From positions 93,658 through 139,962 of the forward strand of contig NZ_JYFN01000002.1 in assembly GCF_000948395.1 (NCBI RefSeq): 46,305 nt of DNA, read 5' to 3'. Below are positions 16,188-35,571 of this stretch, piece after piece (the stretch's first letter is position 1; the number at the start of each line of letters is the position of its first letter). The notes under the pieces were generated by a model. The model was given only the letters and a program-made list of their open reading frames with translations, did no database searches and was not told the DNA's origin. Origin of the DNA: Frankia torreyi. GTDB taxonomy: Bacteria; Actinomycetota; Actinomycetes; Frankiales; Frankiaceae. A program made the translations under genes and the position numbers.

Positions 16188-16215
16188 TTGACATACCGCC
16201 TGGTCGGTTTAGTGT
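16188..16215 (+). promoter_or_regulatory. tetR promoter with operator between -35 and -10
   Basis: TTGACA (16188-16193) and TAGTGT (16210-16215) are separated by 16 bp. The spacer is filled by an imperfect palindrome, ACCG-CCTGGT-CGGT (16195-16208). Transcription would start about 7 nt after the -10 hexamer, at the ATG (16223), giving a leaderless mRNA. A near copy of the operator on the other strand lies before the next gene at 17053-17071 (16 of 19 bases identical), which supports autoregulation by the TetR protein. Confidence 0.7.
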
Positions 16216-16222
16216 CGGGCGC

Positions 16223-16990
16223 ATGGGCGAGGTGGCGGCGGGCGAGGTGGCGGCGATGGTCCCGGCGACGGCCAAGGGTGAGGCGACCCGTGCCCACCTG
16301 TTGCGCACCGCGGCGGCGGTGTTCGCCGGGCAGGGCTACGCCGCGACGACGATGGCGCAGCTCATCGACGCCAGCGGGCTGACCAAGGGCGCGTTCTACT
16401 TCTACTTCCGCTCTAAGGCCGAGCTCGCCCTCGCCGTGCTCGCCGAGCAGAAGACCCGTTTCCTCGACCGGGTCGTCGCGGCGCTGGCGGGCCGGGAGCG
16501 GGCGGTCGACGAGCTGCTCGCCATGGTCCCGGTGATGGTCGAGCTGATCGAGCGCGACCCGGCAGTGTGGAGCGTCACCCGCCTGGCCCGCGAGCTCGCC
16601 GCCGAACCGGAGCTCGCCGCGCGGGTACGTGAGCCGATGGTGGCCTGGGTGGCGCTTGTCGCGGACGTCGTACGCCGGGCCCAGGCTCAGGGTGACCTGC
16701 GCGCCCATCTCGACGCCGACGCCCTCGCCGCGGTGCTCGTCGCCGCGTTCGACGGGCTGAAGTCGCTCACCGACGTCCTCGACGGCCCGCGGGCCTCGGC
16801 CCGCTTCGCCGAGCGGGCGGGGGTGCTGGCCGGCCTCGTCGACCTGGCGCTGTGCGGCGGTCGGGGCATGGCCACCGACCCGGCGGTCGGGGCGTCCTCG
16901 GTGGACACGGGCTCGGGGGCGGACACGGCGACGGAGGCGATCGCGCCACCGTCGGCCGTGGCCGCGGTGCCCGCCCGGCCCGGCGGGTAG
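16223..16990 (+). CDS. TetR family transcriptional regulator
   Basis: 255 aa. The N-terminal TetR DNA-binding domain (about residues 20-72) is classic: TRAHLLRTAAAVFAGQGYAATTMAQLIDASGLTKG followed by AFYFYFRSKAELA. The rest is an all-helical ligand domain, with a disordered Ala/Pro tail after about residue 215. It probably represses its own promoter and that of the downstream SDR gene, because the same operator-like sequence is found before both. The mRNA appears leaderless. The ligand is unknown; the ScbR-like group of gamma-butyrolactone receptors has a similar RSKAELA-type helix, but that is not proof of the ligand type. Confidence 0.92.
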   Translation: MGEVAAGEVAAMVPATAKGEATRAHLLRTAAAVFAGQGYAATTMAQLIDASGLTKGAFYFYFRSKAELALAVLAEQKTRFLDRVVAALAGRERAVDELLAMVPVMVELIERDPAVWSVTRLARELAAEPELAARVREPMVAWVALVADVVRRAQAQGDLRAHLDADALAAVLVAAFDGLKSLTDVLDGPRASARFAERAGVLAGLVDLALCGGRGMATDPAVGASSVDTGSGADTATEAIAPPSAVAAVPARPGG

Positions 16991-17052
16991 CCCCGCCCGC
17001 GCGCCTCGCGGCGGTCGGCGTCACCGCCGTCGTGTCCGCCTGCTCCCCCAAC

Positions 17053-17071
17053 AAACCGACCGGATGGTATG
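17053..17071 (+). promoter_or_regulatory. Second TetR operator, before the SDR gene
   Basis: AAACCGACCGGATGGTATG matches the reverse complement of the site in the tetR promoter (AAACCGACCAGGCGGTATG) at 16 of 19 positions. The arms ACCG and GGT are conserved, with the differences in the centre. It ends 9 nt before the preferred ATG (17081) of the SDR gene, where a bound repressor would block initiation. Confidence 0.65.
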
Positions 17072-17080
17072 GAGACGCTG

Positions 17081-17872
17081 ATGGACCTGCAGGGACAGAC
17101 CGCGCTGATCACCGGGGCGTCGACGGGCATTGGCGCGGTGTTCGCCCGCGCCCTCGCCGCGCGCGGCGCCGACGTCGTCCTCGTCGCCCGCGACCCAGAC
17201 CGCCTGCAGGCGGTGGCCGACCAGATCGTGGGCGACCACGGGGTGCGCGCCCAGATCGTCGCCGTCGACCTGGGCGACCCGGGCGCCGCCGACGTCGTCG
17301 CCGAGCGGGTCGCGGCCGCCGGGGGCCGGGTGGACCTGCTGGTCAACAACGCCGGCTTCGGCGCCTACGGCGACCTGGTCGGGGCCGACCCGGTCCGCCT
17401 CGCCGACCTGGTGCGGCTCAACTGCGTCGCGGTGGTCGCGCTGACCGCCCGTTTCCTGCCCGCGATGGTGGCCCGTGGGCAGGGGGCGGTGGTGAACGTG
17501 GCGAGCACCGCGGCGTTCCAGCCGTTGCCCCACATGGCCGTCTACGGGGCGAGCAAGGCGTTCGTGCTGTCGTTCAGCGAGGCGTTGTGGGCGGAGACGC
17601 GTTCGGCGGGGGTGCGGGTGCTGGCGCTGTGCCCGGGTGCCACCGAGACGCCGTTCTTCGACGTCCTCGGCACCCGCGACAGCGTCGTCGGCGCGGTGCG
17701 CACCCCCGAGCAGGTGGTGGCCGCCGCGTTGCGCGCCCTGCAGCGGGGCCGGCCGGTCGCGATCGACGGGCGGCGCAACGCGCTGCTGGCCCGCGGCGGG
17801 CGGCTGCTGCCTCGGCGGATGCTGGTGCGGATCGCCGAGCGCACCATGCGCCCGACGCCCGCCCGCATCTGA
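17081..17872 (+). CDS. Short-chain dehydrogenase/reductase (classical SDR)
   Basis: 263 aa from ATG 17081, preferred over ATG 17069 because GGAG (17071-17074) lies at the right distance and because 17069 is inside the operator. SDR hallmarks in order: cofactor motif TGASTGIG, NNAG (LLVNNAGFGAYG), catalytic Ser in NVASTAAF, and YGASK with the catalytic Tyr and Lys. After the catalytic core comes LCPGATETPFF. The long C-terminus with LLPRRMLVRIAERTM is basic and could lie against the membrane. The presence of the operator just upstream indicates control by the adjacent TetR. Substrate unknown; the group includes ketoacyl and steroid reductases. Confidence 0.9.
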   Translation: MDLQGQTALITGASTGIGAVFARALAARGADVVLVARDPDRLQAVADQIVGDHGVRAQIVAVDLGDPGAADVVAERVAAAGGRVDLLVNNAGFGAYGDLVGADPVRLADLVRLNCVAVVALTARFLPAMVARGQGAVVNVASTAAFQPLPHMAVYGASKAFVLSFSEALWAETRSAGVRVLALCPGATETPFFDVLGTRDSVVGAVRTPEQVVAAALRALQRGRPVAIDGRRNALLARGGRLLPRRMLVRIAERTMRPTPARI

Positions 17873-35326: not shown

Positions 35327-35571
35327 GCGACGGCCGGAGTATCCTGGCTCCCGGGTCGACGCGCGCCTTCGGCCTTCCAGCCGCCTGCCGCGGCCGTGAC
35401 CCGTCGTCCCACCCGGTGCCGGGAAGTCCGCTCCCAGCCCGGGCGCGACGATCACCGGATGTGCCCTCCTGCGCCGCGTCGCGCCGGTGGATCCACCCGG
35501 GAAGACGCACTTCCCGGTGACAGTGGCGGGACCGCGCCGGATTCACACCGGCTTCCTCCCGAAGCTGTCGC
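35327..35571 (-). ncRNA. Cobalamin riboswitch
   Basis: On the minus strand the aptamer core reads GGGAGGAAGCCGGTG, TGAATCCGGCGCGGTCCCGC and CCACTGTCA (35561 to about 35518), the strongly conserved B12-riboswitch segment. The B12 box, GGGAGCCAGGATACTCCGGC, follows at 35352-35333. A P1 helix can form between GCGAC (35571-35567) and GTCGC (35331-35327). Downstream, GGTGATCACC (35324-35315) and a CCTC/GAGG pairing over the leader-ORF ribosome site (about 35291-35302) could form the expression platform. It should repress the chelatase-cobO-cobB-cobE operon when adenosylcobalamin is plentiful. Confidence 0.93.

Follow-up and report, generated by a model that had tools for sequence, protein, structure and literature searches.

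Why does almost the same sequence stand ahead of both a tetR gene and the SDR gene that follows it in Frankia torreyi, and to what might the encoded repressor respond? We addressed this question in a 46,305-base stretch of the genome (the window), in the complete 7.62-Mb genome and in related loci of other actinobacteria. The explanation that fits best, and that we consider probable, is a repressor-enzyme switch that controls itself on the plan of a gamma-butyrolactone (GBL) receptor circuit, with a lactone- or lipid-like ligand on which the SDR would act.

Two operators in the Frankia torreyi locus

The sequence CATACCGCCTGGTCGGTTT (16192-16210, plus strand) was found again on the minus strand at 17053-17071 with 3 mismatches, and a search at up to 3 mismatches returned exactly these two matches in the window. 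None of 100 dinucleotide shuffles of the window reproduced the pair, confirming the preliminary description of one operator sequence placed twice in opposite orientation with 16 of 19 bases shared. The operator is an 18-bp inverted repeat, present before both tetR and the SDR gene, in the following arrangement:

16188-16193, plus strand: -35 hexamer TTGACA of the tetR promoter (read from the sequence)
16193-16210, plus strand: operator 1, ATACCGCCTGGTCGGTTT, occupying the spacer between the tetR -35 and -10 elements (25.7 bits by weight matrix; fits the ARE consensus)
16210-16215, plus strand: -10 hexamer TAGTGT of tetR (read from the sequence; position preserved in relatives)
16223-16990, plus strand: tetR, encoding a repressor of the GBL-receptor superfamily, predicted to be leaderless (family, fold and tree)
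17053-17070, minus strand: operator 2, reading AAACCGACCGGATGGTAT on the plus strand, an inverted copy of operator 1 (matrix, mismatch and pattern searches)
17071-17074, plus strand: Shine-Dalgarno-like GGAG abutting operator 2 (read from the sequence; GGAG preserved in relatives)
17081-17872, plus strand: classical SDR gene (Pfam adh_short; start taken from the alignment of relatives)

The location of operator 1 between the -35 and -10 elements agrees with the earlier proposal, with its limits corrected from 16195-16208 to 16193-16210. The TTGAC immediately 5' of this operator is preserved in most Frankia and Arthrobacter relatives; a generic promoter scan did not call the tetR -35 element. 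An SDR start at 17069 was discarded, a start codon being absent there in several relatives, and the start was placed at 17081, where residue M5 aligns with the sole possible start in several relatives. The ATG thus lies 10 nt past the end of operator 2, which therefore abuts the Shine-Dalgarno sequence and does not cover the start codon, so that the suggested overlap of operator and SDR start was not borne out.

A symmetric weight matrix, built solely from operators in relatives that do not belong to this Frankia species group and so avoiding circularity, ranked operator 2 first in the window (17053-17070, 28.8 bits) and operator 1 second, followed by a third site of 8.2 bits. No site scoring as well as either operator occurred in 20 Mb of random sequence of matching dinucleotide make-up. 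The motif is not abundant at random in the genome either: the pattern AWACC-N8-GGTWT occurs four times in 7.62 Mb, and two of these occurrences are operators 1 and 2. One further site, AAACCACCCAGTGGGTTT at C131:7718-7735 (L165:2719-2736), scores 23.1 bits, in the range of real operators, and lies within or just before a membrane-protein gene, making it a possible additional target of the repressor. Another, at C110:204133, scores 15.7 bits and lies inside the first codons of an NmrA-like gene. The notion of a self-contained two-gene circuit was hence nearly right, with these two extra sites fitting the loose pattern and one of them operator-like in score.

Operator 1 agrees with the AvaR1 consensus AWWCCRBBHDDNMSGTWT (PMC5744401) at 18/18 positions and with the SfbR consensus AAACVGNNBVNNCSGTTT (PMC7480387) at 17/18, and operator 2 agrees with each at 16/18. 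By this match, both operators are of the ARE type, as for gamma-butyrolactone/butenolide receptors. The preliminary description mentioned neither this operator type nor the kinship of the TetR with GBL receptors and the recurrence of pair and operators in other genera, both described below.

Three other features of the window were recorded. Near its start, tetR carries a tandem duplication of 15 bp (16225-16255), which adds about five residues (MGEVAAGEVAA) relative to close relatives. A divergent gene for an FMN-binding protein (PF04299; 15450-16148, minus strand) starts about 45 bp from operator 1 and could share control with tetR in this Frankia group. A cobalamin riboswitch match (35439-35552, minus strand) scores 33.4 bits, just above the Rfam gathering score of 31.5.

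Conservation of the gene pair and its operators

Orthologous tetR loci were taken from genome collections and Streptomyces plasmids; because several Arthrobacter and Frankia loci are near-identical copies, they amount to about 8-10 independent cases rather than 26. The tetR-SDR pair and its operators are common to Frankia, Actinoplanes, Gordonia, Arthrobacter and Streptomyces plasmids, which supports the earlier claim that the same type of operator precedes both genes. The plasmid tetR is 44% identical to that of F. torreyi; plasmid-borne transfer of exactly this tetR was considered and set aside, as a plasmid search for it at E 1e-15 gave no match. An SDR gene (52-90% identity) lies downstream of tetR in all fetched loci except two. 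In Frankia sp. QA3 (L026:4800-5040), an in-frame deletion leaves the first ~20 and last ~60 residues of the SDR, with tetR and operator 1 intact and operator 2 weakened. In the Streptosporangiaceae bacterium NEAU-GS5 (L032:4820-5985), the SDR slot is filled by a strictosidine-synthase/SMP-30 gluconolactonase-like protein behind its own ARE. Among 18 SDR homologues without this tetR as a neighbour in genomes of the class, no ARE was found within the short flanks fetched (~1.5 kb), and the operators therefore travel with tetR. In a literature search that covered few subscription journals, we met no previous account of the pair.

The distance from operator to tetR start is 12 nt in F. torreyi (ATG at 16223) and 11-14 nt at every locus measured in Frankia, Actinoplanes, Streptosporangiaceae, Gordonia, Arthrobacter and Streptomyces plasmids, the starts in these relatives being ATG or GTG. 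Since this gap leaves no room for a ribosome-binding site past a normal transcript start, the geometry fits a leaderless message at every locus measured, and we predict one for tetR, in line with the original proposal.

The number and position of operators vary more. One operator before each gene is the arrangement in Frankia, Arthrobacter and Streptomyces plasmids, with operator 2 in an equal position in Frankia AgB1.9 and CiP1, Arthrobacter and the plasmids. In Actinoplanes and Gordonia, two operators in tandem, spaced by 22 bp, precede tetR, the SDR gene follows it directly and operator 2 is absent; Candidatus F. californiensis has a tandem pair plus an ARE-like sequence before the SDR gene. 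In F. gtarii and F. tisae (90% protein identity), the tetR stop overlaps the SDR start and a decayed operator 2 lies inside the end of tetR. The decay of operator 2 in F. gtarii and F. tisae and its absence in Actinoplanes and Gordonia indicate that a separate SDR operator is not essential. Looping between the operators was considered and set aside, as their spacing varies among relatives and the helical phase is not constant.

Kinship of the repressor and the reductase

The best curated family for the repressor is the NCBIfam model of ScbR autoregulator-binding factors (NF041196), at 129 bits and under the cut-off of 150. All 24 orthologues match this model with the best E-value among families, exemplified by 131.9 bits for an Arthrobacter and 121.1 bits for a Streptomyces plasmid orthologue against the same cut-off. 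The solved proteins nearest in sequence are TylP and AvaR1, with CprB slightly further down, and a structure search with the predicted fold (mean pLDDT 84.7) placed AvaR1 at the top and TylP and CprB lower in the list. In a quick likelihood tree with SH-aLRT support only, the 24 proteins form one clade placed outside, and next to, that of 23 AfsA-linked (ScbR-type) receptors, with a support of 98 for each. Residues Q64, W127, V158, F161, T162 and Q165 surround the hormone in AvaR1 (PMC7347384); the first four of these are preserved in 24/24 orthologues, whereas D and K take the places of the lactone contacts T162 and Q165, respectively, each in 23/24 (D177 and K180 in the F. torreyi protein). 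The AfsA-linked receptors have mostly T/A/S at 162 and Q/E at 165, and the two swaps mean that the head group of the ligand may differ. We conclude from these sequence comparisons that the repressor belongs to a sister clade of ScbR, GBL-receptor-like in build, rather than being a ScbR itself, because it falls below the ScbR cut-off and two lactone-contact residues are replaced.

Compared with the ScbR/ArpA/AvaR1 receptors of Streptomyces, the Frankia protein thus shares the TetR fold (AvaR1 and TylP being among its top structural matches), an ARE-type operator of 18 bp placed in its own promoter in an autoregulatory layout, and the four conserved pocket residues. It differs from them in its separate clade below the equivalog cut-off, in its Asp and Lys at positions 162 and 165, and in its tie to an SDR gene in a genome in which our search found no AfsA. 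The pseudo-receptors (ScbR2, JadR2, AvaR2, SfbR2) are likewise GBL-receptor-like proteins that read the same AREs, and the Arthrobacter orthologue resembles them as a second receptor next to a true ScbR; in Frankia, however, the repressor is the sole such regulator and its direct partner is the SDR.

A link to GBL signalling comes from Arthrobacter, in which AfsA was found inside the fetched locus in 6/7 cases. The pair there adjoins an AfsA synthase gene (252.6 bits, cut-off 200) and a true ScbR gene (208 bits, cut-off 150), with an epimerase-family gene in the gblE position. In Arthrobacter sp. efr-133-R2A-120 (L042:1285-5453), this gbl-type cluster comprises an epimerase, a ScbR receptor, an AfsA synthase, the second receptor and the SDR; five further Arthrobacter loci resemble it, and we found no description of such a cluster in the literature. 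Arthrobacter MI7-26 (L045) lacks AfsA and retains the tetR-SDR pair, and no Frankia relative has AfsA linked to the pair. The AfsA, ScbR and epimerase-family genes beside the Arthrobacter pair recall the gblA/gblR/gblE cluster known from Rhodococcus jostii (PMC5735094), although that cluster was reported without GblD and the TetR-SDR pair is not described there.

The SDR retains the catalytic motifs TGxxxGIG, NNAG and YxxxK across 19 aligned sequences. Its best curated match is mycolate reductase, with a score far below that model's cut-off; that enzyme acts on 2-alkyl-3-oxo lipids. For GblD-type SDRs, reduction of GBLs at the 6-keto group has been described (PMC5735094), a reaction that, we infer by analogy, may be chemically similar to that of mycolate reductase. 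Like GblD-type enzymes, the Frankia protein is a classical SDR, and its Arthrobacter counterpart is linked to AfsA. The reading of the SDR as an obvious GblD was set aside, since a comparison with the AfsA-linked SDRs of Streptomyces yielded just one match, a weak one. The initial suggestion that the SDR might use or form the TetR ligand is plausible.

Competing explanations and a proposed switch

That two GC-rich palindromes resemble each other by chance could be entertained in a genome of ~75% GC with a CCGG-rich motif core, but the matrix, pattern and shuffle statistics and the conservation in distant genera rule this out, leaving it a negligible probability. A more serious question is whether operator 1 alone matters, with tetR and the SDR gene forming one operon and operator 2 being a roadblock, a loop partner or a vestige. 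The overlapping genes and decayed operator 2 of F. gtarii and F. tisae, the tandem operators of Actinoplanes and Gordonia and the promoter/terminator scan, which found neither a consensus promoter nor a terminator before the SDR gene, all favor this arrangement. Operator 2 is nevertheless kept in other Frankia, in Arthrobacter and on Streptomyces plasmids, its distance to the start (10-13 nt) resembles that of operator 1, and it stands before an unrelated gene in NEAU-GS5; on balance, we give this reading roughly one chance in three.

Similar weight falls on an ordinary metabolite-inducible TetR-SDR pair without a part in signalling: the TetR would have its ancestry and operator in common with GBL receptors, yet respond to some lipid or ketone from the cell or its surroundings, which the SDR would reduce. 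The missing AfsA, the T162D and Q165K swaps, the sub-threshold ScbR score and the distant match of the SDR to mycolate reductase with its 2-alkyl-3-oxo lipids would all agree with it, as would the binding of non-GBL ligands such as antimycin A by pseudo-receptors of the superfamily (PMC7480387). It accords less well with the Arthrobacter pair adjoining AfsA and ScbR genes, with the pocket residues preserved throughout the orthologues and with the lactonase-like fold in the SDR slot of one relative. That the pair is left over from a GBL biosynthesis cluster whose synthase was lost, its former GblD now decaying in Frankia, appears unlikely: Arthrobacter retains AfsA beside the pair, MI7-26 retains the pair alone, and QA3 has lost the SDR core in frame, with operator 1 retained and operator 2 weakened, yet most Frankia carriers have both genes intact, the geometry of operator 1 and promoter is tightly conserved, and AfsA linkage occurs in no Frankia relative.

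We return to the self-regulated switch. Against it count the lack of AfsA in this genome, the repressor's score under the ScbR cut-off, the T162 and Q165 swaps and the decay or absence of operator 2 in some relatives. Comparative sequence analysis establishes the operators, their conservation, the linkage of the two genes, the family kinship and the absence of AfsA; onto this, DNA binding, repression, the transcription start, the ligand class and the SDR substrate can be projected as follows. A TetR dimer would bind the 18-bp ARE-type operator. On operator 1, between the -35 and -10 elements, it would block tetR's own promoter, from which the transcript is expected to begin at or next to the ATG. 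On operator 2, just upstream of the ribosome-binding site of the SDR gene, it could either shut off a local promoter of low strength or halt transcription running on from tetR. Binding of a hydrophobic ligand would free the repressor, so that repressor and reductase rise together. The ligand would most likely be GBL/butenolide-like or another 2-acyl lactone or lipid, possibly made by other bacteria, given that AfsA is missing here. Most likely, the SDR would reduce this ligand or a closely related compound, much as the 6-keto group of GBLs is reduced by SDRs of the GblD type.

A bolder extension of the switch, which we hold tentatively and rate somewhat above the decaying remnant, is a synthase-less lactone-sensing module, in which a receptor clade with an Asp/Lys pocket controls a signal-modifying enzyme, namely the reductase or the lactonase-like protein that takes its place in one genome. 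If true, carriers without AfsA would sense and chemically edit the hormones of their neighbours. Judged from sequence, the locus defines a repressor-enzyme switch that is conserved, together with its exact operators, across five or more actinobacterial lineages, among them plant symbionts that fix nitrogen. A receptor clade is tied here to one enzyme, so that a single protein, a pair of short DNA probes and a modest set of lactones would suffice to test what the ligand is.
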